A stretch of 64,000 bases of DNA from Gammaproteobacteria bacterium. Lineage in GTDB: Bacteria; Pseudomonadota; Gammaproteobacteria; Steroidobacterales; Steroidobacteraceae. The notes beneath the pieces were generated by a model. It made no database searches and had not been told where the DNA came from. It saw nothing but the letters and a program-made list of their open reading frames with translations. Positions within the stretch are counted from its first letter, which is position 1; each line of letters opens with the position of its first letter. Both the position numbers and the translations under genes were made by a program. The stretch lies in NCBI GenBank assembly GCA_027459765.1, contig DAIDHD010000029.1:1-64000 (forward strand). Reading direction: 5' to 3'. Shown here one piece after another: positions 168 through 61,328 of this stretch.

Positions 168-496
168 TGAAACTGTTAGTTTTTTCCTAAGCGTACAACG
201 AACTTACCGTCAGATCTACCGCCAAATAAATCCGCTTGAGGATGATAGATGGCGATAGATGCGGAAAGGTGCAAGGCGATTTGGCGCCCAAGTGATGCCG
301 AGAGCCTCTCTGACCATTAGACCGCCAGGAAATCTAGAAGCTTGGCGGCGTTGGTCGACACCTGGCCCGCACAAAAAAGACCACCTACTTCCTGCTGGGA
401 ACTTGCCTCAAACGTGTAATGTTGACCTAGGCTCGAGCGACAACAGTTCATGGACTTCAACATGCAACCTAAGCCCACGTTCCGGCGCCCTTTCCC
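168..496. other. intergenic stretch without a recognisable gene
   Basis: About 330 bases of mixed composition, clearly more AT-rich than the guaA side. Short frames exist, for example an ATG at 249 with 23 codons, but none has a recognisable product, and I see no integrase fragment. The end runs into the damaged YiiX-like gene. It is probably the decayed left edge of the island. Confidence 0.4.
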
Positions 497-977
497 ATGA
501 GGGGCGTTCCTCAACACTGCAGGCGGCGGACTTGCACGCTTTCTTTCCAGGCCCCGCCATGTAGCGGCGACTGCGCCGTCGTCCGAGATCAATCGACTCG
601 CGACGGTATTGCAGCCTGCAGATGTCCTGCTGGTTGAGGGCAACTCGATGATCAGCGGCGCTATCAAGTACCTGACGCAATCGACGTGGTCGCATGCGGC
701 GGTCTTCATCGGGGCAATCTGTTCTACGCTGATTGCCCAGGCTTTCCAGTCAGTGAACTACCCGATCCTGCCGCACTTGACTCAGCGGGACGCAGCGCGC
801 CCGGGGTGTCCCGACTGTCAGGAAGAGGTGCTCCATATCCGTCACCACAGCCTTTTTGCGCCCCGGGATTTCGACCTGTCACCCTATTTCGAGATTGTGA
901 AACCGCTGCTCGAACACGAGTTCGATTACCGCGCACTCATTTGGGGTGACGCCGAATCCGCCGCCAAGACGGCCTGA
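497..977 (+). pseudogene. YiiX-like permuted papain-fold amidase, frameshifted and internally deleted
   Basis: The frame ending at 977 reads back to 501 (GLARFLSRPRH, then LQPADVLLVEGN, then YLTQSTWSHAAVFIG). These match the N-terminal half of YiiX/YaeF-type permuted NlpC/P60 proteins, including the catalytic His in WSHAA. The text then jumps straight to ICSTLIAQAFQS, which in this family carries the catalytic Cys and normally lies far downstream, so roughly 100 residues appear deleted in frame. The only upstream ATG (497) is in another frame and a TGA at 498-500 blocks this one, suggesting a lost or gained base near the start. A TTG at 609 could start a short product of 122 residues. Likely non-functional. 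Confidence 0.55.
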
Positions 978-984
978 CACACCG

Positions 985-2085
985 ATGAAGCACCTCGTGC
1001 TGGTAGGCGGCGGACATGCCCATCTCTTTGTGCTGCAACGACTGGCCAAAGAGCGGCGCAACGACATCGTGACCACGCTGATCAGCCCGAGCCGGTGGCA
1101 GTACTACTCCGGCATGTTGCCGGGCTGGATCGCCGGACTCTACGAGGCCCACGAATGCCGAATCGACCTGCGATCGCTTGCGCAGGCAGCGGACGCCCGT
1201 TTCATCGAGCAGGCGGCCATCGGATTGTATGCCGACGACAAACAGGTCGAGACGAGCGACCGGCAACGCCACCCTTACGACGCACTCTCGCTCGACATCG
1301 GCAGCGAGACAAATTGCCGTGACCTGACCCTCCTCGGCGATCGTTTGCTGCCCGTTCGCTCATCGCACTTCCACGAGCGCTGGCAGGACATTCTGGGTCA
1401 GGCGCGAGTGCAGCCCGGCTACAGGCTTGCCATCGTCGGCGGCGGCGCTGCCGGCGTGGAAGTCGCACTCGCCGCCCGCACCGCCTTGGCCAGGGTCCAG
1501 ACTTCCACTCACGTGGATCTCGTCTGTGGCGTGAACGGTCCTCTACGAGGCATGGGCGCGATCCCACGGCGGCTGGCCGGCCGTGCGTTGGCTCGGCTGG
1601 GCGTCACAGTGCATCGCCATCGCGCCACCGGAACGCACGCCGGCCTGCGACTCGATGATGCGGAGACGCTCGAGGTCAACGCAGTCATTGCCACCACAGG
1701 GGCCAGTGCTCCGCAATGGCTGCGGGCGACCGGTGCCAGTCATGATGTATCCGGATATGTCCGCGTGGACCACCACTATCGCAGCGTCTCGCACCCGTCA
1801 ATCTTCGCCGCCGGTGACATCTGCGCAAGTACCACAGGTCAGGTCCAACGATCCGGCGTCTACGCGGTACGTGCCGGCCCGGTGCTCGCACATAACCTGC
1901 TGGCCGCCTTGAAGGGCCATCCCCTGACTCCTCATCGGCCGCGCCGCCGCGCGCTCTACATTCTTGCAACCGGAGACCGGCAGGCCATGGCGACCTGGGG
2001 GCCGCTTTCGGGCTCTGGACGCTGGGCTTGGAGGCTGAAAGACTGGATCGACCGGCGTTTCATGCGCAGGTTCGGGCAGCCATGA
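985..2085 (+). CDS. FAD-dependent pyridine nucleotide-disulfide oxidoreductase, SelD-N-terminal type
   Basis: A 366-residue flavoprotein related to type II NADH dehydrogenases. It has an N-terminal FAD-binding GGGHAH motif at residues 8-13, a second dinucleotide fold (VGGGAAG, 151-157) and the late FAD motif FAAGD at 274-278. The GGGHAH opening is the pattern I associate with the family seen as the N-terminal half of bifunctional SelD (selenide, water dikinase) proteins; here no SelD domain follows. Its substrate is unknown. The ATG at 985 is chosen because it starts directly at MKHLVLVGGG. Its stop overlaps an ATG at 2082 in the frame of the following sigma factor, hinting at co-expression. 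Confidence 0.75.
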   Translation: MKHLVLVGGGHAHLFVLQRLAKERRNDIVTTLISPSRWQYYSGMLPGWIAGLYEAHECRIDLRSLAQAADARFIEQAAIGLYADDKQVETSDRQRHPYDALSLDIGSETNCRDLTLLGDRLLPVRSSHFHERWQDILGQARVQPGYRLAIVGGGAAGVEVALAARTALARVQTSTHVDLVCGVNGPLRGMGAIPRRLAGRALARLGVTVHRHRATGTHAGLRLDDAETLEVNAVIATTGASAPQWLRATGASHDVSGYVRVDHHYRSVSHPSIFAAGDICASTTGQVQRSGVYAVRAGPVLAHNLLAALKGHPLTPHRPRRRALYILATGDRQAMATWGPLSGSGRWAWRLKDWIDRRFMRRFGQP

Positions 2086-2213
2086 GCGGCGCTTTGACCG
2101 CAGTCCCCCCCGGGAGGCGTCCCCTCCGGGACAGCACGGCCCCGGCGGCGTCGCTGTATCATGCTCGGCAGCCTGCTCTGCACGTTCGGTGGCGCGGGCG
2201 CATTGGGGAACGC

Positions 2214-2840
2214 TTGAATCAAACGAATCACAATGCCATTGGCAACGCCACCGGGAAGGATCGCGCTCTTGGGGAGCCAGTCTCGCTTTCGGCGTTGCGT
2301 GTGAAGCTCCTGCGGTTCGCGACCCTGCAGCTGGGCGACCCTCATCTGGCGGAAGATGCCGTCCAAGAGGCGCTGCTCGGGGCACTGAATAACCTGCGCT
2401 CATTCCGCGGCGAAGCGGCGCTCCATACCTGGGTCTTCTCGATTCTCAAGAATAAGATCGCCGACCAGCTGCGCCAGCGTGCGCGGCGACCGGAAATTGG
2501 TGAAACGGTTATCGGTGATGATCTCGATGAAACGATTTCCATTTTTGATGACCGCGGCAGGTGGCATGAGCCCAACCGACCGGTCCGATGGGCGGAACCG
2601 GAGTCGGCGGTTATCGACCATCAGTTCTGGCGCGTATTCGAGGCCTGCCTCGAAAACCTTCCCCGGCAGCAGGCGCGCTTGTTCATGATGCGAGAATTCG
2701 TGCAGCTCGACACCGAAGAGATCTGCCAGGCGTTGGCCATAAAGCCCGGCAATCTCAATGTCGCTTTGCACCGTGCCCGTTTGAAGCTGCGCGCCTGCTT
2801 GGAACACCACTGGTTCGTTGCGGGGGAGGCGGCATGCTGA
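2214..2840 (+). CDS. ECF-type RNA polymerase sigma factor
   Basis: A 208-residue protein with sigma region 2 at about 25-90 (HLAEDAVQEALLGAL, then FRGEAALHTWVFSILKN) and region 4 at about 138-200 (LPRQQARLFMMREF, then a helix-turn-helix ending LHRARLKLRACLE). It would direct RNA polymerase to a small regulon. I chose the TTG at 2214, preceded by GGGGAA, because it leaves a normal short lead before region 2. An in-frame ATG at 2082 overlaps the upstream stop and would add 44 residues of low-complexity sequence over a GC-rich hairpin. The next gene encodes the probable anti-sigma factor, with overlapping ends. Confidence 0.8.
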   Translation: MNQTNHNAIGNATGKDRALGEPVSLSALRVKLLRFATLQLGDPHLAEDAVQEALLGALNNLRSFRGEAALHTWVFSILKNKIADQLRQRARRPEIGETVIGDDLDETISIFDDRGRWHEPNRPVRWAEPESAVIDHQFWRVFEACLENLPRQQARLFMMREFVQLDTEEICQALAIKPGNLNVALHRARLKLRACLEHHWFVAGEAAC

Positions 2841-3043
2841 CCTGCCGTCGCGTTACCGAGCTGCTCTCGGAGGCTCAAGAGCACCCCTTGTCGCTGCGGG
2901 ACCGCGCAGCACTGCGCATGCACATGATGATGTGTGATGGCTGCCGGAATTTCGAACGCCAAATGGACATGCTGCGAAAGATCTCTCGTAGTTATGTGCC
3001 CACTGCGAATTCCCCGTCCGAGGAAGATCCGCAGCCGAAATAG
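2834..3043 (+). CDS. small zinc-finger (zf-HC2-like) anti-sigma factor
   Basis: A 69-residue soluble protein with the anti-sigma zinc-binding core: His30, Cys34 and Cys37 in HMMMCDGC, and Cys4 near the N-terminus. It starts inside the sigma gene (ATG 2834, sigma stop 2838-2840), the usual arrangement for an ECF sigma/anti-sigma pair. There is no transmembrane segment, so it is probably a cytoplasmic sensor or inhibitor, perhaps metal- or redox-responsive. The release signal cannot be read from sequence. Confidence 0.75.
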   Translation: MLTCRRVTELLSEAQEHPLSLRDRAALRMHMMMCDGCRNFERQMDMLRKISRSYVPTANSPSEEDPQPK

Positions 3044-3218: not shown

Positions 3219-3238
3219 TTACAGTCCGGGAGCTGTAA
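3219..3238. promoter_or_regulatory. inverted repeat upstream of the TonB receptor, candidate operator
   Basis: TTACAG and CTGTAA form a perfect 6-bp inverted repeat separated by TCCGGGAG. It lies about 160 bases before the receptor start in an otherwise empty 350-base leader (3044-3398). Dyads of this size are typical of dimeric repressors or activators. No regulator for it is visible apart from the sigma factor upstream and merR at the far end of the island. Confidence 0.4.
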
Positions 3239-3398
3239 TGTTGGCGCCCCTTCCAGCGACAGAGACACTACGCAACAAAATCAACCCCTTATATTTAAGA
3301 GCGCGGGTGGGGAGTACCTCGAATGGACCCAACGAACACGATCGGGAACGGGGCGAGTTCCTTCCATACGAACACTTTAGCCACGGAGCCCGAATGCG

Positions 3399-5741
3399 AT
3401 GCAACCCTTCTCCCCGAAGTACTTAAGGCCCCGCTTCATTCTCCTCATCATGGCGGCTGCGGTCAGTTGCGGATTTTGGGCTCCCGTGCTGCTAGCGTCG
3501 GAAAGTGATGGCGCTGGCGGCGACGCCATCCAGGAGATCGTCGTTTCCGCGCGCAAGGTCGAGGAGCCGATCGAGCGGGTGCCGGAGAGCTTGACCGTAT
3601 TCACGGCACAGTCTCTCGCCGACATGGACATCCGCTCTTTCAACGACTATGCCTCCAAGGCAGCGAACGTCGCCTTTGGATACGGTGCCGGCTCCACCGG
3701 CATCTCCAACGCGCGAACGGTATCCATCCGTGGAATTACAGGGCAGAACCTGTTCGGTACCGCCGGCGCGGTAGGCTTCTATATTGACGACACACCGGTG
3801 CCGGAGGCGATCGATCCTCGAGTCATTGACCTTGATCGCGTCGAAATCCTCAAAGGCCCCCAAGGCACACTCTACGGCGAGAGTTCTTTATCGGGAAACG
3901 TGAGACTGATCAGCCGTCGACCGGATTTACAGCACGATGAGCTTGCGGTCGCTGGGGATGCCGGCTTGACGTCCGGGGGGGGAAGCGTTGACGGGGGTGC
4001 CGGCGCCGTTGCCAACCTCGTGGCCATTCCGGACCATCTGGCGCTGCGCATCGTGTTGTTCGCGAATCACGATGCCGGCTATCTCACCCGCACGTTCCCC
4101 TCCCCCTCCAGTCCCGCCACCGGCGATCCGTCTGTCGCGGCTCCTCGCACCAGTGTCGGGGACCAAGGCGCAGAGTGGACTTACGGTGGCTCCATCAACG
4201 CACTGTGGCGGCTGACCAATTCCCTCGAAGCGCGCTTTCGAGTCATGTTCCAAGACGCCGAGCAGCATGGATTCGCCGCCACCTTCGCGCCGTTGCCCGC
4301 CTTCAGCGCCGACTACACGTTGAACCGCGCCTTCGACATCCAGCCGCATGCAATCGATCGCTGGGCATTACCCTCCATCGACATCGTCTATCACTCGGAA
4401 TTTGTCACGGTGCAGTCGTCTACGAGCTACTTCTACCGCCGCAACAGCGACATCGAGGACTCGACCTACGGAACGGAACAGATTTTTCACAGCTACTATG
4501 GTGTCAACAGCCTGCCAAATCAGCCCTTCCTGTGGGACCAGGAGCACCGGCAGAATCAGCTGACCGAGGAACTGCGCGGAAGCTTTACGACGAATCCGTA
4601 CCTGACCGGCACGATAGGTGCGTTCGCGTCCCGCACTCGATCGACGCTCTCGATCCCGCCGACTTACGCCCAAGGGCTCGTCGCAGCCACAGTCGGCAAT
4701 ACCGTGGTCGGCCCCTGGCCTAACAATCTGATCTGGACCGACTACAATCCTCTCACCCAAGATGACTTCTCGCTCTTCGGCGAGGCGCAATGGCATATTG
4801 TGCCCGCGCTCACGGCCACGCTAGGCGCTCGTCAATACTGGTTGCGCCAGCGTACGGACTTCACTGCGAACGGCTTCAACAACTTTGGGGCGACCTTGAG
4901 CGATCCGCAACACAGCCGACAGTCCGGATTCAACCCTCGACTGGGTCTGTCGTACCAGGTCACTGAGGCGACGATGGTCTACGCCTCCGCCTCCGAGGGC
5001 TTTCGCGCCGGCGCTGCCCAGCAATTCCTGCCGTTCTGCGCAGCCCCAGCGCTGCCAGCAGACGCGATTACCCATCTGCGCTCGGACTCGCTGTGGAGCT
5101 ATGAACTCGGCGCAAAGGCGCGACTGTCCACCGGACTCACAGTTTCAGCGGCGGCCTTTCACATTGACTGGAGCAATCCGCAACAGCAGGTGGCCCTGCC
5201 ATGCGGCGCCTACTTCGACATCAACGGCGGGCGCGCCCGCGTGGACGGCGGCGAAATCGACGCCGCCGGTAAACTGGGGTCCCATTTCGAGATTCACGCG
5301 AGCGGTGGCGTCGAGCATACGTCGGTGACCGATCCCGGTGCGCTCGCATTGGTTGGCGTCACACCGGGATCGCGCATCCTCGGGACTCCGCAATGGAATG
5401 CTTCGCTCGCGCTGATATCGCATGTTTCCTTGACAGCAACGATGGAGGGATTTGCCGAACTCGATGACAGCTATACCGGAAACAGCCGCACGCTGTTGAA
5501 CGGTGGCAACGGGACTTTCGCCACCCGCGCGGGGTATTCACTCGCCAACTTGCGCGTGGGGATCAGACATCAAGCTGGCGAATACTCGCTTGCCATTCGC
5601 AATTTGACAAACTCGAAGCCGAATCTGGGCGACATCGGCTACGTGGGTTACGCCCAATACACGAGCAACGGCGCCATTATCCCGCAGGTTGCGACGCTCC
5701 AGCCGCTGACCGTTCTGCTGGAGATGCGATGGAGCCATTGA
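3399..5741 (+). CDS. TonB-dependent outer-membrane receptor
   Basis: A 780-residue protein with a signal sequence (hydrophobic 13-34), a TonB box (EIVVSARK, 46-53), a plug domain to about residue 170 (VSIRGI, then DRVEILKGPQGTLYG) and a beta-barrel rich in alternating aromatic strands, ending MRWSH. It lacks an N-terminal STN signalling domain, so it probably does not signal to the nearby sigma factor in the FecA manner. Substrate unknown: barrel similarity of this general type is shared by siderophore and many other receptors. It appears to head an operon with the flavoprotein fusion, DUF547 and YnjBCD genes, suggesting it brings the importer's substrate into the periplasm. Confidence 0.88.
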   Translation: MQPFSPKYLRPRFILLIMAAAVSCGFWAPVLLASESDGAGGDAIQEIVVSARKVEEPIERVPESLTVFTAQSLADMDIRSFNDYASKAANVAFGYGAGSTGISNARTVSIRGITGQNLFGTAGAVGFYIDDTPVPEAIDPRVIDLDRVEILKGPQGTLYGESSLSGNVRLISRRPDLQHDELAVAGDAGLTSGGGSVDGGAGAVANLVAIPDHLALRIVLFANHDAGYLTRTFPSPSSPATGDPSVAAPRTSVGDQGAEWTYGGSINALWRLTNSLEARFRVMFQDAEQHGFAATFAPLPAFSADYTLNRAFDIQPHAIDRWALPSIDIVYHSEFVTVQSSTSYFYRRNSDIEDSTYGTEQIFHSYYGVNSLPNQPFLWDQEHRQNQLTEELRGSFTTNPYLTGTIGAFASRTRSTLSIPPTYAQGLVAATVGNTVVGPWPNNLIWTDYNPLTQDDFSLFGEAQWHIVPALTATLGARQYWLRQRTDFTANGFNNFGATLSDPQHSRQSGFNPRLGLSYQVTEATMVYASASEGFRAGAAQQFLPFCAAPALPADAITHLRSDSLWSYELGAKARLSTGLTVSAAAFHIDWSNPQQQVALPCGAYFDINGGRARVDGGEIDAAGKLGSHFEIHASGGVEHTSVTDPGALALVGVTPGSRILGTPQWNASLALISHVSLTATMEGFAELDDSYTGNSRTLLNGGNGTFATRAGYSLANLRVGIRHQAGEYSLAIRNLTNSKPNLGDIGYVGYAQYTSNGAIIPQVATLQPLTVLLEMRWSH

Positions 5742-5790
5742 AGCGCGTCACACCCATAGCAGAGTCGCCAACGTCGGGCGGGCCGGAGCG

Positions 5791-7944
5791 ATGAAGGGTC
5801 GACTGCTGCTTCTGGTGGTTATCGGCGTCGCCGTTGCCTTGTTTTTTGTGACGGGACTGCATCGCGAATTCAGCCTCGATCAACTACGTGCGCACTTTCA
5901 GGATCTGCATCAGCTTGACGCGCGCCACCCCTTGGCACTGGCAGGCGCCTACTTTGCCGTCTACGTTCTGATGGCGACGCTTTCGCTGCCGGGCGCGGCC
6001 ATTTTGACGCTGCTGGGAGGTGCCATTTTCGGCGTGGTCTGGGGTAGCGTCCTGGTTTCGTTTGCCTCCAGCGGCGGCGCCCTGCTGTCCTTTCTCACCT
6101 CACGCTACCTCTTCAAGGACTTCGTACAGGCAAGGTACGGTGCGCGGTTCGGCGAGATCAATGCGGGATTGCGCCGCGATGGCATTCTATTCCTGCTGAC
6201 GTTGCGGTTGGTTCCGGTGATCCCCTACTTCGTCGTCAATCTCCTGATGGGATTGACGAATATGCGGCTCGCTGCCTATTACCTCGTCAGTCAGATCGGC
6301 ATGCTTCCAGCCACCGTGATTCTGGTACAAATCGGTACACAGCTGGGCGCCGAGGGGCAGGCCGTGGGCGCCTTGAGCTGGCACATAGTGACGCTCCTGG
6401 CGGCGCTTGCAGCCCTACCGTGGATCGCGCGCCGGCTAATTCGGGCCTGGCAGTTACGGCGGCGATATGCCCGGTGGACTCGACCGCGTCGGTACGACCG
6501 CAATCTCGTCGTGATCGGCGCCGGCGCCGGCGGACTCGTCACCTCCTATGTGGCGGCGGCGGTGAAAGCCAAGGTTACCCTCATCGAGTCTCACCGCATG
6601 GGCGGCGATTGCCTCAACTACGGCTGCGTTCCGAGCAAGGCGCTTATCAAGACAGCCAGAGTCGCATCCATTCTCCGGCACGCGGAACGCTACGGTCTGT
6701 CGTCTACGACGCCGCCACTCTCGTTCGACGCCGTCATGACGCGAGTTCGCCAGGTCATCGATGCGGTCGCACCCCACGACAGCGTTGAGCGCTACACGGC
6801 GCTTGGAGTGGAGGTCCTCGAAGGTCATGCACTGATTGTGGATCCCTGGACCATCGACGTTACCCTCCACTCCGGGAAGGTTCGCCGGCTCACGACGCGC
6901 GGCCTGGTGGTCGCGACCGGCGCAGCGCCTGTGGTCCCCAGAATCACCGGTATCGAAGAGTCAGGGTATGTCACGAGCGAGACCCTGTGGTCGAAGCTTG
7001 CCACGCTGCCTTCGCCGCCGGAACGAGTGGTGATTCTCGGGGGCGGTCCGATCGGTACTGAGCTCGCTCAGGCGTTGGCGCGGTTGGGGTCCCAAGTCAC
7101 CCAGATCGAGAAAGGCGGTCGACTCCTCGGTCGGGAAGACCCGGAGGTATCGGCGTCGGTGCACGCCGCCCTGAACGCTGACGGAGTGAACGTCCTGCTT
7201 GGTTACGAAGCACTGCAATGTCGCCGCGACAATGGGATCGGGATCCTCATCGCGCGAGGCGCTCTGGGGACTCGCGAGATTCCCTACGATCTGCTGGTGT
7301 GCGCGGTGGGGCGTCGTCCACGACTTGCTGGATTTGGTCTCGAGGCCCTTGGTGTGCTTGAGGACGGCAAGTTGCCGATCAACGAGTACCTCGAAGCAGC
7401 CCTGCCGAACATCCTTGCCGCCGGGGACGTCACAGGCTCCTACCAGTTCACCCACTTTGCCGGCCACCAGGGCTGGTATGCCGCCGTGAACGCGCTGTTT
7501 GGGCAGTGGCGTCGATTCAAAGTCGATACTCGCGTGATTCCGCGGGTGACGTTCACGGATCCGGAGATTGCGCGCGTCGGGCTCAACGAGTCCGATGCGG
7601 TCGCGGGAGGCGTGGCCTTTGAAACTACGACATACCGCCTTGAGGAACTGGACAGGGCTATTGCCGAGAGCCGCACCGGCGGCTTCGTCAAGGTACTGAC
7701 CGCAGCGAAAAGTGACCGGATACTGGGAGCCTGCATCGTGGGTGATCATGCCGGCGAGATGCTGGCGGAGTTTACCCTGGCGATGAAGCATGGGTTGGGA
7801 CTGAAGAAAATCCTGGGAACGATTCACCCTTATCCTACTTTCTCGGAAGCGAACAAGTACGCCGCGGGCGAATGGCAGCGTGCACACCTGCCTACTCATT
7901 TGCTGCGATGGGTTCAACGCTACCACGACTGGCGTCGGGATTGA
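5791..7944 (+). CDS. TVP38/TMEM64 membrane domain fused to a flavoprotein disulfide reductase
   Basis: A 717-residue two-part protein. Residues 1-220 are hydrophobic and carry TVP38/DedA-type features (SLPGAAILTLLGGAIFG near 65-81, LRLVPVIPYFVVN at 138-150). From 236 on it is a class I pyridine nucleotide-disulfide oxidoreductase: FAD motif GAGAGG (243-248), redox pair Cys274/Cys279 in GGDCLNYGCVPSK, NAD(P) motif GGGPIG, and a C-terminal HPYPTFSE providing the His-Glu base. It resembles mercuric reductase and dihydrolipoyl dehydrogenase, but has no N-terminal HMA domain and no C-terminal Cys-Cys pair, so Hg(II) reduction is unlikely. The soluble half is probably cytoplasmic. Substrate unknown. 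Confidence 0.85.
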   Translation: MKGRLLLLVVIGVAVALFFVTGLHREFSLDQLRAHFQDLHQLDARHPLALAGAYFAVYVLMATLSLPGAAILTLLGGAIFGVVWGSVLVSFASSGGALLSFLTSRYLFKDFVQARYGARFGEINAGLRRDGILFLLTLRLVPVIPYFVVNLLMGLTNMRLAAYYLVSQIGMLPATVILVQIGTQLGAEGQAVGALSWHIVTLLAALAALPWIARRLIRAWQLRRRYARWTRPRRYDRNLVVIGAGAGGLVTSYVAAAVKAKVTLIESHRMGGDCLNYGCVPSKALIKTARVASILRHAERYGLSSTTPPLSFDAVMTRVRQVIDAVAPHDSVERYTALGVEVLEGHALIVDPWTIDVTLHSGKVRRLTTRGLVVATGAAPVVPRITGIEESGYVTSETLWSKLATLPSPPERVVILGGGPIGTELAQALARLGSQVTQIEKGGRLLGREDPEVSASVHAALNADGVNVLLGYEALQCRRDNGIGILIARGALGTREIPYDLLVCAVGRRPRLAGFGLEALGVLEDGKLPINEYLEAALPNILAAGDVTGSYQFTHFAGHQGWYAAVNALFGQWRRFKVDTRVIPRVTFTDPEIARVGLNESDAVAGGVAFETTTYRLEELDRAIAESRTGGFVKVLTAAKSDRILGACIVGDHAGEMLAEFTLAMKHGLGLKKILGTIHPYPTFSEANKYAAGEWQRAHLPTHLLRWVQRYHDWRRD

Positions 7945-7948
7945 TCGC

Positions 7949-8749
7949 ATGATTCGCAAAATTTTCATCGCACTGGTATCGCTAATCGCGGTCGGGACGG
8001 CCGACGCCTCTGCGATTTTCGACCATTCCGACTGGAGCTCGCTTCTTCAGAAGTACACAAACCCGGTGAGATCGGGTCATGGTAGCGAAGTGAATTATGC
8101 GGGGATGCGGCGTGGAAACTCAGAACTCGACCGCTACCTTGCGCGAGCCGCGACCGTGACCCGAGCCGATTTCGATCGCTGGGATCGCTCTGACCAGTTG
8201 GCATTTCTCATCAACGTCTACAATGCCGCGACGGTTCGGCTCGTTCTGTCCGGCAACCCCGGGATCCAATCAATAAAGGACCTCGGCTCGCTATGGCGTT
8301 CGCCTTGGAAGATTCCGACCGTGGATGTGCTCGGTGTGACCCGAAGCCTCGACAGCGTCGAACACGAGTTGATCCTTGATTCGGATCGGTATGAAGATCC
8401 ACGGGTGCATTTCGCGCTCAATTGCGCGAGCCAAAGCTGCCCCGCGCTTCGCTCCGAGGCCTATGTAGGAGATCGGCTCGATCAACAACTGGAGGACCAA
8501 GCACAGCGATTTCTCGGCGACCGAACCAGAAACTATATTCAGGGTTGCGAGCTGCGGATTTCGCCCATCTTCAAATGGTACCGGCGCGATTTCGAGAATG
8601 GATGGCGTGGAGTGCGCAGCCTCAAAGATTTTTTGCTGCGATACGCCGCCGCGCTTGGATTGACTGGATCGGAAATGCACGCGCTCGACTCGGGCGCCAT
8701 CGAGGTCACGTGGCTGAACTACGACTGGTCGTTAAACGCCTCGCACTGA
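7949..8749 (+). CDS. DUF547 domain protein, exported
   Basis: A 266-residue protein with an N-terminal signal peptide (MIRKIFIALVSLIAVGTADA) and the DUF547 signature (DQLAFLINVYNAATV near residue 80, NCASQSCPALR near 160). The biochemical function of DUF547 is not known. It starts four bases after the flavoprotein stop, so the two are surely co-transcribed. Its periplasmic location between a reductase and a binding-protein gene suggests a role in handling the substrate outside the inner membrane. Confidence 0.8.
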   Translation: MIRKIFIALVSLIAVGTADASAIFDHSDWSSLLQKYTNPVRSGHGSEVNYAGMRRGNSELDRYLARAATVTRADFDRWDRSDQLAFLINVYNAATVRLVLSGNPGIQSIKDLGSLWRSPWKIPTVDVLGVTRSLDSVEHELILDSDRYEDPRVHFALNCASQSCPALRSEAYVGDRLDQQLEDQAQRFLGDRTRNYIQGCELRISPIFKWYRRDFENGWRGVRSLKDFLLRYAAALGLTGSEMHALDSGAIEVTWLNYDWSLNASH

Positions 8750-8766
8750 GTAGCACAGCCGGCGCA

Positions 8767-10002
8767 GTGTTTCCCACCTGTCGCCGAGGTGGTTCCCGCA
8801 ACAGATGGGCGCTTGCCGCATGTCTCTGGCTGGGACTCATCCCGGTCGTGTCACGAGCGGCAGGACCCACGAAAACCGACCGGGATTGGGCGCAGGTTCA
8901 GGCTCGCGCGGCGGGAAACACAGTTTATTTCGATGCGTGGGGCGGCGATCAAGCGGTCAATCGGTACCTCGTCTGGGTCAGCGATCAGGTCCGACTGCAG
9001 TTCGCGATACGGCTGGTGCAAGTGAAGGTGACGGACATCGCCGAGGCGGTTACCCGGATCACTGCCGAGGCCGCCGCAGGCCGGCGGCATGGCGGAAGCT
9101 CGGACCTGCTCTGGATCAACGGTGCCAACTTTGCTTCCCTCCAGAAGGCTGGCTTGCTTTACGGCCCTTGGGCCGACCGGCTGCCGAACTCGGGTCTCAT
9201 TGATACCCGCGGCAATCCGACTACGGTGACGGATTTCCAGATCCCGACCAGGGGCTATGAACTGGCCTGGGGCACGTCCCGCTTTTCATTGTTCTACGAC
9301 GCGAAGGCCGTAGCGCACGTGCCGCGTAATATCGCTGAGCTCCTCGCGTGGATCCGGGCTCATCCCGGACGATTCACCTATCCTCGTCCGCCGAATTTCC
9401 TCGGCACCAGCTTCCTGAAGCAACTTCTCATCCTGACCGTTCCGGAGCACGCTGCACTGGCACGCCCGGTCGCTGCCGACTTCAAGCGCGTTACCGCGCC
9501 CGTGTGGGTGTGGCTGGATGCCGCCCGGCCGTTCCTATGGCGGCACGGCCGCCTCTATCCGCCCAGCGGGCCGGCGCAGACGGAACTGCTGGCTACCGGA
9601 GAAGTGGACTGGACGATGTCGTTCAATCCCCTCGATATGGCACGCGCCATCCAGACCGGCGAGATGCCGGATTCAATAAGACGAATGGCCTTCGCGCAAG
9701 GGACGCTCGCCAACAGTCACTTCCTTGCGATTCCCTTCAACTCCAGCCACGTGGACGCAGCGCTGGTAGTCGCCAATTTCCTGATCTCCCCCGCAGCCCA
9801 GGCGCGCAAAGCCGACGTCTCGGTATGGGGCGACCCGACGGTCCTCGACCCGACGCGTCTGCCGAAAGTCGACGGGCGGCGGGCTGCGGAACCAGCTGAT
9901 CCGTCGGACACCGGGGCCAACGAGCCGCTAGTACCGGACCTCGATCCCTCCTGGATGACCGCGCTGGAGCAGGAATGGCTTCGGCGCTACGGTACGCAAT
10001 GA
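8767..10002 (+). CDS. ynjB: ABC transporter periplasmic binding protein, YnjB-like
   Basis: A protein of about 411 residues closely patterned on E. coli YnjB: NTVYFDAWGGDQAVNRYL near the mature N-terminus, GGSSDLLWINGANF, FTYPRPPNFLGTSFLKQLL, KADVSVWGDPTVLDP, and a C-terminus ending LEQEWLRRYGTQ. Starting at GTG 8767 gives a good signal peptide (RWALAACLWLGLIPVVSRA); GTG 8710 is the alternative. It belongs to the iron/spermidine/thiosulfate-type binding-protein superfamily, but the YnjB substrate is unknown. The ynjC permease start overlaps its stop. Confidence 0.83.
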   Translation: MFPTCRRGGSRNRWALAACLWLGLIPVVSRAAGPTKTDRDWAQVQARAAGNTVYFDAWGGDQAVNRYLVWVSDQVRLQFAIRLVQVKVTDIAEAVTRITAEAAAGRRHGGSSDLLWINGANFASLQKAGLLYGPWADRLPNSGLIDTRGNPTTVTDFQIPTRGYELAWGTSRFSLFYDAKAVAHVPRNIAELLAWIRAHPGRFTYPRPPNFLGTSFLKQLLILTVPEHAALARPVAADFKRVTAPVWVWLDAARPFLWRHGRLYPPSGPAQTELLATGEVDWTMSFNPLDMARAIQTGEMPDSIRRMAFAQGTLANSHFLAIPFNSSHVDAALVVANFLISPAAQARKADVSVWGDPTVLDPTRLPKVDGRRAAEPADPSDTGANEPLVPDLDPSWMTALEQEWLRRYGTQ

Positions 10003-11639
10003 GCCGCGTATTGTCCGTCCTGTTGGTTCTCGGGAGCGTCCTGCCCGCGATGGCGGGGCTGGCCGCCTCGCTCGTGCAGGCCGCATCCCCTGCCGCCTGG
10101 GCGACCCTGTTGGCGACACCTGGGCTGTGGCGATCACTGACGCTGTCACTCTGGACCGGCACGGCGTCGACCCTGCTATCACTGATTCTGGCCCATCTGG
10201 CGGTCTCAGCCGCCGGGATCGCTCGGCGCACTGGCCGCTTGCGATCGTTCGTCCTGCCCATGATAGCCTTGCCGCACCTGGCCGTGGGCATCGGACTGGT
10301 CCTGCTCCTATCGCCATCCGGCCTGTTGCTGCGGATGTTCTCGCCGTGGCTCACGGGCTACTCGCGCCCGCCCGACTGGATCGTCGTGCAGGATCCGCAA
10401 GGGCTGGCGCTGATCCTCGGGCTGGTCGTCAAGGAAACTCCGTTCCTCGCGCTGACCCTCCTGGGTGCGCTCACGCAGGTGCCTACGGAACGCTTTCTCG
10501 ACGTCGGCCGTACGCTGGGCTATGGGCCTTTGAAGTCCTGGCTGGTCGCGGTCGCTCCGCCACTTCAGCGACAGATCCGGCTTCCGACGGTGGCGACCCT
10601 CGTCTACGGCTGCACCAACGTGGATCTCGCACTGCCGCTTGGCCCGCAGACCCCGCCGCCGATGGCGATCCTATTGTGGCAATGGTTCACATCCTCCCGG
10701 ATCGAGGACGCGGGATTCGCTCACGCGGGTACGGTCCTGCTGGTCGGCGCCGTGGTGGTGTGCCTGGCTGCCGTGCTGGCCATCGCCTGCGCACTGCGTC
10801 CGCTCATGACGCGCTGGGCGACGGACGGTCATCGCTTCACGCATGACGGTCCTCCGCGCGCACTCGGGATGGCTGGTTCGTCCATCGTCGGCGTCCTCGC
10901 CATGGGAGCCGTGGTCGCCTTGCTGCTGCGGGCATCGACACCGATGTGGCGATTTCCGGCGGTGTGGCCGGTCTCCGCCACGGGGCACCCGAATGGGTTC
11001 GCATCGCTGGCAGACCCGCTCACCGCGCTCCGAACCGCCGCCATCGGAATCGTGGTTGCGTCGGCCACGCTGGCGATCGTCTGGTCGCTCTCCGAGTGGG
11101 CGCCATGCAAGGCGGGGCGCAGTCGCACCCTGACGGCCGTATTCTTCCTGCCGCTATTGATGCCACAGATCTCGTTCCTGTTTGGGCTTTCGTGGCTTGC
11201 ATCGGCGCTGCGCCTGGATGGTTCCTACGCACTGGTCGCGTGGACCCACCTCGGATTTGCGCTCCCGTATGGCTGGGGAGTCTTGTCGACTGCGCGGGCA
11301 GCCCTCGACGAGCGCTACCTGCAAGTGGCCGCGAGCCTCGGGGCAGGGCCGTTTCGTCGCTGGTGCAGCGTCACGCTGCCGCTGCTGGCCAGGCCCAGCC
11401 TGCTCGCCGCCTCGCTCGCCTTCGCGGTCAGCACCGCCTTGTACCTGCCGACACTCGCTGCCGGCGCGGGCCACGTACGGACGCTGGCAGTGGAAGCTGC
11501 GGCATTGACGAGTGCCGGAACACTGCACGTGGCCGCGCAGTCCGGCATCGCCATGGCCCTGCTTCCGCTGCTGGCATTTGCGATCGCGGCGATCTCGTCT
11601 CGCGTGCTGTTCCGACGCTTCGGCGGAATGCCCCGATGA
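9999..11639 (+). CDS. ynjC: ABC transporter permease, YnjC-like, two fused membrane domains
   Basis: A 546-residue integral membrane protein with two successive binding-protein-dependent permease units, each with an EAA-type loop (first half VPTERFLDVGRTLGYGPLKS; second half LDERYLQVAASLGAGPFRRW). The double permease is typical of the ThiP/AfuB/YnjC group, so one polypeptide forms the channel. ATG 9999 forms an ATGA overlap with ynjB and is preferred over ATG 9975. It works with the YnjB and YnjD products. Confidence 0.85.
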   Translation: MSRVLSVLLVLGSVLPAMAGLAASLVQAASPAAWATLLATPGLWRSLTLSLWTGTASTLLSLILAHLAVSAAGIARRTGRLRSFVLPMIALPHLAVGIGLVLLLSPSGLLLRMFSPWLTGYSRPPDWIVVQDPQGLALILGLVVKETPFLALTLLGALTQVPTERFLDVGRTLGYGPLKSWLVAVAPPLQRQIRLPTVATLVYGCTNVDLALPLGPQTPPPMAILLWQWFTSSRIEDAGFAHAGTVLLVGAVVVCLAAVLAIACALRPLMTRWATDGHRFTHDGPPRALGMAGSSIVGVLAMGAVVALLLRASTPMWRFPAVWPVSATGHPNGFASLADPLTALRTAAIGIVVASATLAIVWSLSEWAPCKAGRSRTLTAVFFLPLLMPQISFLFGLSWLASALRLDGSYALVAWTHLGFALPYGWGVLSTARAALDERYLQVAASLGAGPFRRWCSVTLPLLARPSLLAASLAFAVSTALYLPTLAAGAGHVRTLAVEAAALTSAGTLHVAAQSGIAMALLPLLAFAIAAISSRVLFRRFGGMPR

Positions 11640-12280
11640 CCACACTAACGCTCACGGCGGTCAGCCTCCGACTCCGCGAGCAACGCCTGTTCGCACCGCT
11701 GAGTCTGGTCCTGGAACCCGGTTCGATCTCCTCTATAGTGGGTCGAAGTGGTGCAGGAAAATCCTCACTCCTGTCATTCCTCTGCGGCTTGCTGAAGCCG
11801 CCATTTGTCGGCGAGGGTGAGGTCCTTCTCGACGGTGAGCGCATTGACGCGCTGCCGCCCCACTGCCGCCGCCTCGGTCTGATGTTCCAGGACGCGCTGT
11901 TGTTTCCTCACTTGACCGTCGCCGACAACCTCGCGTTTGGCCTCAGGCTTCGGATCTCTTCAACCCAGAGGCGCTCCGTCATCCGACGCGCCCTCGAATC
12001 CGTTGATCTTGGAGGCTTCGAGGAACGAGACCCTGCAACACTCTCGGGTGGCGAACGCACCCGCGTCGCGTTGATGCGAATGATGTTGGCTGAACCCCGG
12101 TGCGTCCTGCTCGATGAACCATTTTCGAGTCTTGATCCGGACTCGCGGGCGGCAACGAGGGCGATGGTGTTCGGCGAACTTCGTCGCCAACAGGTGCCGA
12201 CATTGCTGGTCACTCATGACAAACACGACGTCGAGGCCGCGGGTGGCACCGTCATCGCGCTGCAGAAGCTCAAGGAGTAG
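11636..12280 (+). CDS. ynjD: ABC transporter ATP-binding protein, YnjD-like
   Basis: A 214-residue ATPase with Walker A GRSGAGKSS (36-44), Q-loop in LGLMFQDALLFPHLTV, signature LSGGERTRV, Walker B CVLLDEPFSSLDP and switch VTHDKHD. It energises the YnjBC importer. Its ATG forms an ATGA overlap with ynjC. At this length there is no C-terminal regulatory domain. Confidence 0.87.
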   Translation: MTTLTLTAVSLRLREQRLFAPLSLVLEPGSISSIVGRSGAGKSSLLSFLCGLLKPPFVGEGEVLLDGERIDALPPHCRRLGLMFQDALLFPHLTVADNLAFGLRLRISSTQRRSVIRRALESVDLGGFEERDPATLSGGERTRVALMRMMLAEPRCVLLDEPFSSLDPDSRAATRAMVFGELRRQQVPTLLVTHDKHDVEAAGGTVIALQKLKE

Positions 12281-12285
12281 CGCAA

Positions 12286-12885
12286 GTGCTGGATGTCGCT
12301 ATGCGAGGATGCATTGATCCTGCGCTGAACGCCGCCGGCCGGCGCCTCGCAGCCTGGGGAGTGCGAGCCAACACCGTCACGATCCTCGGCCTTGTGGCGG
12401 GACTCGCGTCCGCCGGCGCCATTTCACAGCGACACTTTGCGCTCGCTTTGGTGCTGATTGCCGTCTCGCGGCTTCTCGACGGCCTGGATGGCCCGATCGC
12501 ACGCGCCGCGGGACCCACTGATCGCGGCGGCTATCTTGACATCGTCTGTGACTATGCTTTTTACGCCGCCGTCCCCTTCGGGTTCGCCTTGGCGAATCCT
12601 GTCCTCAACGCCCTTCCAGCCGCGGCCTTGCTCGGCAGCTTCACGCTCACGGGCGCCACGTTTCTCGCATACGCCGCCATCGCCGGAAAGCGGGGCAGCC
12701 AAACTGCCGGTCCCAAGGCTTTCCACTACTCATTTGGGCTGATGGAAGGCACAGAGACGATCGCCTTTCTTGCTGGCATGGTCCTGTTCCCAGCGTACTT
12801 CCCCATGCTCGCTTGGGTATTTTCGAGTCTCTGTCTCGTGACCGCTCTGCAACGCTCGATCTCCGCGGTCGCGACCTTTAGGTGA
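12286..12885 (+). CDS. ynjF: CDP-alcohol phosphatidyltransferase family membrane protein, YnjF-like
   Basis: A 199-residue polytopic protein with the CDP-alcohol phosphotransferase motif: Asp65, Asp68-Gly69, Ala72-Arg73, Asp85 and Asp89 (DGLDGPIAR, then GGYLDIVCD). Enzymes of this family join a CDP-linked lipid to an alcohol at the inner membrane. It follows ynjD by five bases from a GTG start. E. coli also has ynjF downstream of ynjBCD, though with the rhodanese gene ynjE between, which is missing here. The conserved linkage suggests a shared process, still undefined. Confidence 0.75.
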   Translation: MLDVAMRGCIDPALNAAGRRLAAWGVRANTVTILGLVAGLASAGAISQRHFALALVLIAVSRLLDGLDGPIARAAGPTDRGGYLDIVCDYAFYAAVPFGFALANPVLNALPAAALLGSFTLTGATFLAYAAIAGKRGSQTAGPKAFHYSFGLMEGTETIAFLAGMVLFPAYFPMLAWVFSSLCLVTALQRSISAVATFR

Positions 12886-13272: not shown

Positions 13273-13491
13273 TCAGCTACAACGACAGCTGCCAGCATCC
13301 ACCTGCTTCGGCGGACACGGAACCGTCCCATACGAGCAAAACACGCAGCAGTCACCCGGTTTCGGGCGAAGCACCGTCTTACAGGCCGGACACTCATAGA
13401 AGAAGTGACACGCGTCGGTGGGCATGGTTTCCGTCGACTCGCTTCCGCAGTTCGGACAGCGAAGCGTCGATTTAAGAATCAACTCAACCAT
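13273..13491 (-). CDS. GDCCVxC-domain zinc-ribbon-like protein
   Basis: A 72-residue protein with a CPNCGS knuckle, a second CPACK pair and the motif GDCCVFCSYG followed by VPCPP. This family is often found beside mercury-resistance genes, and some members carry selenocysteine in the last position of GDCCVxC; here that codon is TGC, cysteine. A thiol metal carrier role is plausible but unproven. Its ATG (13491) overlaps the end of merT by 8 bases, so the two are translationally linked and share the MerR-controlled promoter. A longer in-frame start at 13512 is less likely. Confidence 0.7.
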   Translation of the reverse strand: MVELILKSTLRCPNCGSESTETMPTDACHFFYECPACKTVLRPKPGDCCVFCSYGTVPCPPKQVDAGSCRCS

Positions 13492-13858
13492 AACGGTATC
13501 CGAGCACTGCAAGTACTGCGCCCAGCACCAGTCCGACGGCTGTCAGCGTCCGCACGCTCCCTCGAGCGCACCACGCTCCGGGCTCGCAGACTCGGCGAGC
13601 CTGTCGCCACAAGGCCCAGGCGCCCGATGCAAGCAAGGTCCCTGCCACGATGAGTAGTGCCCCTCGGTGCGGAGCGGCGCGCACTGCGATGCCGAATAGC
13701 CACCCCGAGCCAACGCCCAAACTGCCCAATACAAAGGGCAGTCCGCAGCATGCCGCGGCAGCGAACGCTGCACCAAATCCCCCGACCATGTACGCGACTG
13801 GGCTCCAGCCACGCAAACGTCGAAAGATCTCGCCCGTCTGTGTATTGATGCCTGCCAC
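13484..13858 (-). CDS. merT: MerT-like mercuric ion transport protein
   Basis: A 124-residue inner-membrane protein with three hydrophobic segments. It has the vicinal Cys37-Cys38 pair in TM1 (AACCGLPFVLGSLGVG) and a second cysteine set (Cys91, Cys97) in the loop before TM3, as MerT uses to pass Hg(II) inward. It begins with GTG at 13858, just downstream of a MerR-type operator, and is followed by the GDCCVxC gene. No merP or merA follows, so a complete detoxification pathway is not encoded here. Confidence 0.75.
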   Translation of the reverse strand: MAGINTQTGEIFRRLRGWSPVAYMVGGFGAAFAAAACCGLPFVLGSLGVGSGWLFGIAVRAAPHRGALLIVAGTLLASGAWALWRQARRVCEPGAWCARGSVRTLTAVGLVLGAVLAVLGYRYG

Positions 13859-13887
13859 TGAATCTCCAGGAAGTCGAACTGGCGAGT

Positions 13888-13918
13888 ATCCTATCGTCTG
13901 TAGTTGCTACAGACTCAA
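13888..13918 (-). promoter_or_regulatory. MerR-type operator/promoter for merT
   Basis: On the minus strand a -35 TTGAGT (13918-13913) and a -10 TAGGAT (13893-13888) are separated by 19 bp, the over-long spacer that MerR-family activators correct by twisting DNA. Within it lies the dyad GTCTGTAG-CAA-CTACAGAC (13914-13896). It sits between divergent merT and merR, so MerR probably controls both. Confidence 0.8.
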
Positions 13919-13933
13919 GAGGAGGGCGTTCAA

Positions 13934-14338
13934 ATGGTGGAAAAGCTCATTTTGATCGGCGAGTTGTCCCGACAGACTGGCTGCCATATCGAGACAATCC
14001 GCTACTACGAACGGATCGGCGTCATTCCCAAAGCCCAACGGCGTGGTCGGTACCGTTCGTATCGTCCCGACGATGTCTGCCGGCTAAGGTTCATTCATCG
14101 CGCCCGGGAACTCGGATTCTCACTCGCCGAGGTGCGCGCGCTCCTTGAGCTCGGTTCGCAAAATCGCGCCGGCTCATGCAGCCGCGCCAAAGCCGTGGCC
14201 TCAGAACACGTGCGCAGCGTCCGTGCCAAGATCGCCGACCTCGAACGTCTGGTAAACGTCTTGGAAGATGCTATCGAATGCTGCAAAGACGGGCGATCTC
14301 CGCACTGCCCAATTCTCGACGCATTGGAGGCCGCTTAG
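13934..14338 (+). CDS. merR: MerR-family metal-responsive regulator, mercury type
   Basis: A 134-residue activator with an N-terminal winged helix (IGELSRQTGCHIETIRYYERIG, residues 8-29), a dimerisation helix from about 80, and cysteines at 82, 116/117 and 125 (GSCSRAK; ECCKDG then HCPIL), close to the three Hg(II) ligands of Tn501 MerR (82, 117, 126). ATG 13934 has GAGGAGGG upstream. It is divergent from merT with the 19-bp-spacer operator between. Hg(II) is the likeliest inducer, though related cysteine patterns bind Cd, Pb or Zn. Confidence 0.82.
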   Translation: MVEKLILIGELSRQTGCHIETIRYYERIGVIPKAQRRGRYRSYRPDDVCRLRFIHRARELGFSLAEVRALLELGSQNRAGSCSRAKAVASEHVRSVRAKIADLERLVNVLEDAIECCKDGRSPHCPILDALEAA

Positions 14339-60900: not shown

Positions 60901-61145
60901 GGCGCCGCGAGGCCCGGCAGCACCTTGAGCACGAACACGAGCTGCGGCCCGTCCTCGGCGCTGCGGCGCATTTCCTCCGCGAGCACGTCCATGACCCGCT
61001 CGAGCGGACCCCAGACCTGGGTGCTGAGCTGATTGGTGCTGACCGTCAGGTCCGCGTACGTGTTCAGCCGATCGATGAAGGCCTGGATCCGCGGCCGGTA
61101 CCCTTCCGCCAGCGGGTACATGCTGATCTCGACGGCACTACGCAT
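60897..61145 (-). CDS. thiamine-binding-type small protein (MTH1187/YkoF-like)
   Basis: An 82-residue protein (SAVEISMYPLAEGYRPRIQAF at the start, LSTQVWGPLERVMDVL later) fitting the thiamine-binding protein family with a ferredoxin-like fold. It is the first gene after the TPP riboswitch, with its ATG ten bases from the riboswitch P1 helix. It may buffer or sense cytoplasmic thiamine or its pyrimidine moiety. Confidence 0.75.
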   Translation of the reverse strand: MRSAVEISMYPLAEGYRPRIQAFIDRLNTYADLTVSTNQLSTQVWGPLERVMDVLAEEMRRSAEDGPQLVFVLKVLPGLAAP

Positions 61146-61155
61146 GATTGAACAT

Positions 61156-61258
61156 CCACCTGCTCCCTTCGCCGGCATTATCCGGATCAGGTTCGACGGG
61201 TTCGTCAGCCGCTCGCGCCGCCGACGTCTCAGATCCCTTCAGGACCACCCCAAGGCGG
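61156..61258 (-). ncRNA. TPP (THI-box) riboswitch
   Basis: The minus strand shows the THI-box core in order: CTGAGA, then AACCCG, GAACCTGATC, CGGATAATGCCGGCG and AAGGGA. Helix P1 pairs CCGCCT (61258-61253) with AGGTGG (61161-61156). That 3' strand is itself purine-rich and ends ten bases before the ATG of the thiamine-binding protein gene, so it probably doubles as the ribosome binding site. Ligand binding would close P1 and block translation. Confidence 0.93.
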
Positions 61259-61328
61259 CGCAGAGTGTAGCCTGCGGCGCAAACGCGTGCAAAACTGCAG
61301 TGCAGGTCCCGACGAGGCCGTCTCCACC

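Follow-up and report, generated by a model that had tools for sequence, protein, structure and literature searches.

Seven adjacent genes in a 64,000-nucleotide stretch of DNA from a gammaproteobacterium of the family Steroidobacteraceae (assembly GCA_027459765.1, contig DAIDHD010000029.1; the whole stretch is hereafter called the window) lie on the forward strand in the order TonB receptor, TVP38-flavoprotein fusion (hereafter the fusion), DUF547 protein, YnjB, YnjC, YnjD and YnjF. We propose, tentatively and with a probability of about one in three, that they form part of an uptake-and-conversion island controlled by an extracytoplasmic function (ECF) sigma factor, in which the compound that is imported, reduced and linked to lipid would be one that organisms with ArsS make themselves. 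ArsS adenosylates arsenic (PMC12159101). The compound would probably be an organoarsenical of the arsenosugar or arseno-nucleoside type, or else a near analogue based on sulfur or selenium, a reading suggested by the alternation of the importer with ArsS and NupC, by the genes that gather around the fusion, and by the resemblances of the flavoprotein and of YnjB. The most useful new facts are the motif pair dedicated to the island, the recurring receptors of differing subfamilies, and the ArsS/NupC alternation around the fusion.

The first-pass annotation of this DNA had described a co-directional run with gaps of 49, 4, 17 and 5 bases and ATGA overlaps. The coordinates match these gaps, and the overlaps are present at 9999 and 11636. 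In a sample of 398 genomes of the phylum, YnjB scored over its family cut-off in 51, the window's own included, and we compared the other 50 neighbourhoods. The order fusion-DUF547-YnjB-YnjC-YnjD-YnjF was kept in eight of them, so that the grouping goes beyond chance. A TonB receptor belongs to seven of these eight runs, lying directly upstream in six and between DUF547 and YnjB in one (locus L086). Only L075 is without a receptor; its upstream open reading frame (ORF) of 774 residues was considered and rejected, as by eye it reads as a ribonucleotide reductase. Salinimonas profundi (L133) also carries the set with a receptor, as do, on large replicons, Catenovulum adriaticum and Pseudoalteromonas HL-AS1. 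The proposed check of co-occurrence in other genomes thus found the same genes, mostly with a receptor, in other bacteria, and this recurrence supports the earlier view of a single import-and-redox system. Fusion and YnjB occur together in 21 of the 398 genomes (fusion in 59, YnjB in 51; Fisher p = 5.6e-7, not corrected for kinship). The 59 fusion genomes are those with a match of at least 47% identity, genome G018 matching the flavoprotein half only; seven of 66 genomes, whose best match was 35–39% identical, were left out (five with YnjB, two with ArsS, none with both). Three replicons bearing the system (L225, L227 and L229) come from bacteria isolated from algae, which are too few to count; algae are rich in arsenosugars.

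The receptors are not of one kind. That of the window is 28% identical over 115 residues (blastp) to the receptor of L080 (TBDR2), a member of a different subfamily, and among 369 genomes of the class its closest match reaches 35% identity. Around the four relatives from other genomes that we inspected, the operon's other genes were absent. A single receptor family for all the operons was rejected, given that the window receptor is barely like the others, and since the subfamilies differ, receptors were probably recruited to the operon more than once.

The first-pass annotation had the gene set right but passed over the oxidoreductase, ECF sigma factor and anti-sigma genes at 985–3043 (Table 1), a promoter-like motif and a low guanine-plus-cytosine (GC) content; the set is larger than was stated. 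The sigma and zf-HC2 anti-sigma genes are adjacent, both over their cut-offs, and coupled to the TIGR03169 oxidoreductase gene, whose stop overlaps the ATG of the sigma gene; the real start of the sigma factor may be further in. The motif TGTAATGTTG-N11-16-CGACA, first spotted by eye and checked against controls after the fact, has two matches in the window and none in 100 shuffles, and a looser form, TGTAATG-N15-17-CGACA, finds only the same two sites in the host's draft genome (3.34 Mb, 94.86% complete, 3.16% contaminated) and none in the reversed control. The pair is most simply read as a small regulon dedicated to the island, and the ECF factor would drive both motif-led units, a role suggested by the motif pair. 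In 2-kb steps the GC content is 61–67% over the first 14 kb and 67–74% over the remaining window, which begins at the contig's first base, and this lower GC gives the first 14 kb the look of an acquired island.

The distribution of YnjB with respect to ArsS bears on the substrate. When ArsS is counted only over its family cut-off (which leaves out sub-cut-off fragments in G125 and G129, both genomes without YnjB), ArsS is present in 114 and YnjB in 51 of the 398 genomes, and no genome has both. Neither do any of the 59 fusion genomes (ArsS 26, YnjB 21), nor do the 35 genomes of the window's class that carry the fusion (YnjB 19, ArsS 10); by family, the class divides nine versus nine (p = 0.001), and two of the families have some genomes in each state. 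Another 49 named genomes, drawn from 50 loci that we chose among the best 80 named loci, gave 16 with YnjB, 20 with ArsS and one with both. YnjB and ArsS never share a locus among 117 fusion loci, and NupC stands with neither of them across the same loci, save for one weak ArsS match. Moreover, 42 YnjF loci have YnjB or YnjC in 23 cases, NupC in 12 and neither in seven, with ArsS only as one weak match; a further YnjF locus (L195) has ArsS in its genome. In sphingomonads it is NupC, a member of a nucleoside carrier family, that occupies this position, and Sphingopyxis FD7 illustrates the third state, with a receptor-NupC-YnjF-CMD run and a flavin adenine dinucleotide (FAD) oxidoreductase, a sigma factor and the fusion on the same stretch, and the fusion tree requires eight changes between the three states. 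As a pattern the exclusivity is strong; as evidence it is moderate. Where an importer and a biosynthetic enzyme are mutually exclusive before the same downstream genes, the cause is often that they supply the same compound.

The genes that gather around the fusion point in the same direction. From named genomes we took the 80 best-scoring relatives of the fusion with their flanks (a sample and not a census), and neighbours were tallied by tblastn over 117 fusion loci, the window included. YnjF is near 42 of them, DUF547 near 32, TIGR03169 relatives near 30, ArsS near 29 (one weak), TIGR04283 near 29, YnjB and TIGR04282 near 27 each, ECF factors near 23, ArsM-like proteins near 16 and NupC near 13; the bufferin-type genes DUF692 and DUF2282 are near 10 and 8, respectively. 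A representative ArsS (L087) scores 472.8 bits (cut-off 300), the glycosyltransferases TIGR04282 and TIGR04283 are over cut-off in the representative L040, and the ArsM-like representative falls below the ArsM cut-offs; the ArsS match in L186 (26% identity) is probably another radical SAM protein. A motif related to that of the window, TGTAA[GT][AG]-N14-17-CG[AT]C[ACT], which was defined after part of these loci had been viewed, has 69 matches in 116 fusion loci versus 13 for the reversed control; in 35 YnjB loci that lack the fusion, motif and control each have five. The script's rule places 42 of the 69 matches no more than 450 bases upstream of a partner gene, which is the fusion for 15 and ArsS for nine. 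The excess in the fusion loci suggests that a single kind of ECF-type motif often precedes the fusion, ArsS, TIGR03169 and bufferin genes.

ArsS arsenosugar clusters (TIGR04167, TIGR04282/TIGR04283, ArsM) accordingly have the fusion in common with the window and, in part of the loci, also DUF547, TIGR03169, the ECF/anti-sigma pair and the related motif; they differ in that the window's genome has the importer and YnjF instead of ArsS, ArsM and TIGR04283, none of which it contains at cut-off. YnjBCD can also stand with TIGR04283 and TIGR04282, as in L040, L041 and L045, whose genomes have no ArsS over cut-off. The metal(loid) role suggested in the first-pass annotation is upheld by association, through the ArsS, TIGR04282/TIGR04283, ArsM-like, bufferin and ECF/anti-sigma neighbours and the MerA relatives of the fusion, and not beyond association. 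The compound may be scarce, as that annotation supposed, but in its ECF and bufferin context stress or detoxification is as plausible as nutrition. Two further observations concern the fusion loci: a Hydrogenophaga metagenome-assembled genome (L088) carries the most complete single cluster seen, in which bufferin genes run co-directionally with YnjBCD, YnjF, the fusion, DUF547 and a TIGR03169 relative and an ECF/anti-sigma pair adjoins, and on a conjugative IncC plasmid of Salmonella (L033) the fusion is accompanied by bufferin genes, an oxidoreductase and YnjB, while a shortened ynjC adjoins IS26.

The flavoprotein half of the fusion has mercuric reductases (MerA) as its best PDB relatives and shares with them the FAD disulfide fold, the CxxxxC motif, read as GGDCLN.GCVPSK in 112 of 116 fusions, and an active-site tyrosine, present in place of histidine in 108 of 116 (the other eight being unmatched by the search pattern); glutathione reductase has an active-site histidine at this place. 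It differs from MerA in the TVP38 membrane domain in front, in its score against the MerA equivalog TIGR02053 (361.8 bits for the window fusion, under the cut-off of 454.45), and in the cysteine pair that is MerA's means of taking mercury at its terminus: none of 116 fusions has CC in the final 40 residues of its aligned region. The MerA kinship and shared tyrosine without the terminal pair would suit a reductase for a bound organic metalloid or a disulfide rather than for free mercury.

The same kinship can be read as metal detoxification, in which a metal complex or metallophore (mercury, copper or gold) would be imported and the metal reduced at the membrane by the MerA-like fusion, with bufferins and MerT/MerR serving the same defence. 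Mercuric reductases are indeed its closest solved relatives, bufferin genes near the fusion lie in some cases behind the same kind of motif and in L088 within one cluster with the fusion, a MerT/MerR pair lies beside the window operon and mer-like genes lie beside the fusion in L113, and Caulobacter DUF2282, DUF692, DUF2063 and DoxX genes respond to chromate and cadmium (PMC3511200). Bufferin (DUF2282/MNIO) operons, which are defined by peptide precursors and modifying enzymes (PMC12452194), also resemble the island in their ECF regulation and metal-stress context and are sometimes adjacent to the fusion, even to YnjBCD; the window's first 20 kb match none of DUF2282, DUF692 and DUF2063. Nevertheless, we hold metal detoxification to be somewhat unlikely, as the terminal cysteine pair is missing from the fusions, the MerA cut-off is not reached, energy-driven import of a poison would be odd, and the phospholipid transferase is left unexplained. 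Mercury as the main substrate was rejected, a MerT-like protein being near only two of the 117 fusions.

On the import side, YnjB is an SBP_bac_8 protein followed by the fused permease YnjC and the ATPase YnjD, adjacent in YnjBCD order. At E 0.01 the window YnjB matches NF008633 as its sole family; by profile it lies nearest, weakly (E 3e-4 and above), to proteins that bind ferric iron, polyamines, agropine and aminoethylphosphonate, and several tryptophan, asparagine, aspartate and glutamate residues are among those that are invariant. These residues and weak relatives would suit a small organic molecule as ligand. YnjC has no Pfam match, weakly matches NCBIfam molybdate, tungstate and aminoethylphosphonate permeases, and is 28–47% identical in aligned pieces to YnjC of other genomes. 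It is also conceivable that YnjBCD is a thiamine or polyamine-like importer that shares the operon for regulatory reasons only. YnjBCD carries a thiamine label in KEGG, members of the YnjB set show weak family matches to PotD (19 of 55), thiamine SfuA (7 of 55) and ThiB (3 of 55), and thiamine genes adjoin the system in Falsirhodobacter. No thiamine family is among the window YnjB's matches at E 0.01, the sole thiamine pyrophosphate (TPP) riboswitch of the window is at 61 kb, far from the operon, and vitamin or polyamine uptake does not account for the fusion, YnjF or the motif, all of which makes it a very improbable explanation.

YnjF has its catalytic motif intact in 42 of 42 proteins, the window's included, and with its presence near 42 of the 117 fusions this could argue for lipid remodelling, in which YnjBCD would import an ordinary alcohol head group, YnjF make the phospholipid and TVP38 flip it, the redox part sustaining the process under stress. 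An OlsE/fatty-acid-hydroxylase-cluster gene directly follows YnjF in seven loci (L075, L076, L081, L083, L084, L085 and L133; one checked with Pfam), a sterol-desaturase-family gene follows it in two plasmids, and in Roseivivax PqiA/MlaD lipid-transport genes precede YnjF-YnjBCD. COG0398 proteins are considered putative phospholipid flippases in a paper that also notes COG0398 fusions with PF07992/PF02852 (PMC10127716). However, lipid remodelling leaves unexplained the MerA-like active site, the exclusivity with ArsS and the metal-stress neighbours, and we consider it distinctly unlikely. As for the remaining protein of the run, the DUF547 cysteines C159 and C164 are invariant in an alignment of 27 rows, export is predicted because of a hydrophobic N-terminus, and its profile found nothing better than E 0.15 among solved structures.

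Part of the association is old, since E. coli already groups the TVP38 genes ydjX and ydjZ with ynjBCD and ynjF. The E. coli ydjXYZ-ynjABCD-ynjE/ynjF region has TVP38 proteins, YnjB, YnjC, YnjD and YnjF in common with the window; it differs in that its TVP38 genes are separate and without a flavoprotein, that it has in addition YdjY, YnjA and YnjE, a rhodanese, that ynjF lies on the opposite strand, and that its annotated neighbours include neither a receptor nor a DUF547 or ECF gene. For YdjY, YnjA and YnjE, tblastn at E 1e-4 found no counterpart in the window's first 20 kb. A published list of the FNR regulon includes ydjXYZ-ynjABCD, described there as predicted proteins and a transporter (PMC3688515).

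Under the uptake-and-conversion reading, thiol- or metalloid-type stress would free the sigma factor from its zinc anti-sigma factor, after which the receptor would bring a small organic compound across the outer membrane, YnjB would capture it and YnjCD import it. The fusion, as a membrane-anchored MerA-like reductase, would then reduce the compound with NAD(P)H and possibly also move it, or its lipid, across the membrane, and YnjF would join it to a phosphatidyl group. YnjBCD, or NupC in sphingomonads, would be the import arms that replace ArsS before a shared downstream module. A more specific version, which we judge unlikely, is salvage: bacteria without ArsS would import organoarsenicals of the arsenosugar or arseno-nucleoside type, produced by algae and other microbes, through the receptor and YnjBCD or NupC, reduce the arsenic by means of the membrane-bound flavoprotein and incorporate the compound into a phospholipid through YnjF.

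Several observations weigh against the uptake-and-conversion reading, and some of them favour another explanation, that lineage and habitat alone account for the exclusivity of YnjB and ArsS, the operon being a loose stress cluster that serves no single substrate. In a strict independent-pairs test seven pairs gave a mean of 3.4 exclusive versus 0 opposite (sign test, median p = 0.25), seven pairs being too few for such a kinship test to reach significance; in the second class, where ArsS is rare, 26 of 157 genomes have YnjB, two have ArsS and none has both; and one genome, that of Psychrobacter proteolyticus, has YnjB together with ArsS. We find lineage and habitat a quite improbable cause all the same, given the two families with both states in different genomes, the eight changes on the tree, the fixed gene order and the dedicated motif pair. 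The uptake-and-conversion reading also has to contend with the 12 of 59 fusion genomes that have neither YnjB nor ArsS, the 48 of 117 fusion loci without YnjB/C, ArsS or NupC in the stretch covered, the 27 of 69 related-motif matches without a partner gene behind them, three matches credited to the anti-sigma gene that seem to fall inside the sigma gene, and the after-the-fact origin of both motif searches. In the window's own genome the best ArsS match (E 1.5e-5) is not over cut-off, and ArsM and TIGR04283 reach 52.2 bits versus 263 (NF008823) and 48.4 bits versus 182, respectively, so the link to arsenic is by association only. Finally, YnjBCD-YnjF in E. coli is accompanied by plain TVP38 proteins and lacks a flavoprotein, the thiamine genes of Falsirhodobacter lie beside the system, on the other strand, and the MerT/MerR pair of the window may point to mercury instead. 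A selenium route through SelD, suggested by the neighbouring oxidoreductase of the Nterm_to_SelD family, was rejected on account of SelD itself, whose one weak match in the window's genome (62.4 bits, cut-off 125) is not over cut-off.

In the literature searched we found no characterised YnjBCD member with a transported substrate, and YnjBCD is still termed uncharacterised (PMC9207381). Among the open-licence papers searched, which included a selenoprotein review (PMC13188914), PMC8787705 and PMC8801600, we recognised none that describes the system, and none pairing TVP38 with DUF547 was found. YnjBCD and YnjF are widespread, YnjB being present in 51 of the 398 sampled genomes, and the ArsS/NupC alternation, the shared motif and the recurring receptor narrow the question of their substrate to a short list of ligands. 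A possible fate of arsenosugars and arsenolipids in algae-rich waters is thereby suggested, and the salvage version, if true, would give the orphan YnjBCD and YnjF of E. coli a substrate class.

Table 1. Features of the island and its surroundings (window coordinates).
Feature	Position	Strand	Evidence or remark
Promoter-like motif TGTAATGTTG-N13-CGACA, copy 1	415..442	+	Upstream of the sigma unit and of ORF 609–977
Short ORF, no family	609..977	+	No Pfam or NCBIfam match at E 0.001
Pyridine nucleotide-disulfide oxidoreductase, TIGR03169 (Nterm_to_SelD family)	985..2085	+	331.7 bits, cut-off 310
ECF sigma factor, TIGR02943 family	2082..2840	+	217.2 bits, cut-off 162.2
zf-HC2 anti-sigma factor with H-x3-C-x2-C	2834..3043	+	NF052368 70.5 bits, cut-off 50
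Promoter-like motif, copy 2	3234..3261	+	137 bases before the receptor ATG
TonB-dependent outer-membrane receptor	3399..5741	+	PF00593 112.8 bits, PF07715 47.2 bits
VTT (TVP38) membrane domain fused to MerA-like FAD/NAD(P) oxidoreductase	5791..7944	+	Family scans, PDB relatives
DUF547 protein, hydrophobic N-terminus	7949..8749	+	Family scan
YnjB periplasmic binding protein, GTG start	8767..10002	+	NF008633 467.6 bits, cut-off 203
YnjC, fused two-half ATP-binding cassette (ABC) permease	9999..11639	+	Alignment with YnjC of other genomes
YnjD ABC ATPase	11636..12280	+	PF00005 104.8 bits
YnjF CDP-alcohol phosphatidyltransferase	12286..12885	+	PF01066 37.9 bits, cut-off 22; motif DGLDGPIARAAGPTDRGGYLDIVCD
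MerT-like protein	13487..13858	-	PF02411 33.1 bits, cut-off 32.9; below NCBIfam cut-off
MerR-family regulator, divergent from the MerT-like gene	13904..14338	+	Below MerR equivalog cut-off
TPP riboswitch	61145..61262	-	Rfam

Some minor features of the window and of related loci complete the description. The ORF at 609–977, which separates motif copy 1 from the oxidoreductase, may be what is left of a longer protein. The low-GC island closes with the divergent MerT-like and MerR-like genes (13487–14338), next to which neither merA nor merB was noticed, and the MerT-like gene is probably separate cargo of the same island. Elsewhere, mer-like genes lie beside the fusion in L113, and near the fusion-YnjF-YnjBCD locus of L077 a protein encoded at 15389–16132 weakly resembles MerB and SaoL (46 bits, under the cut-offs). 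In L178, L181 and L183, which come from one family of genomes, the fusion is followed by a conserved protein of some 730 residues that matches no protein family; in L163 this protein comes before the fusion.

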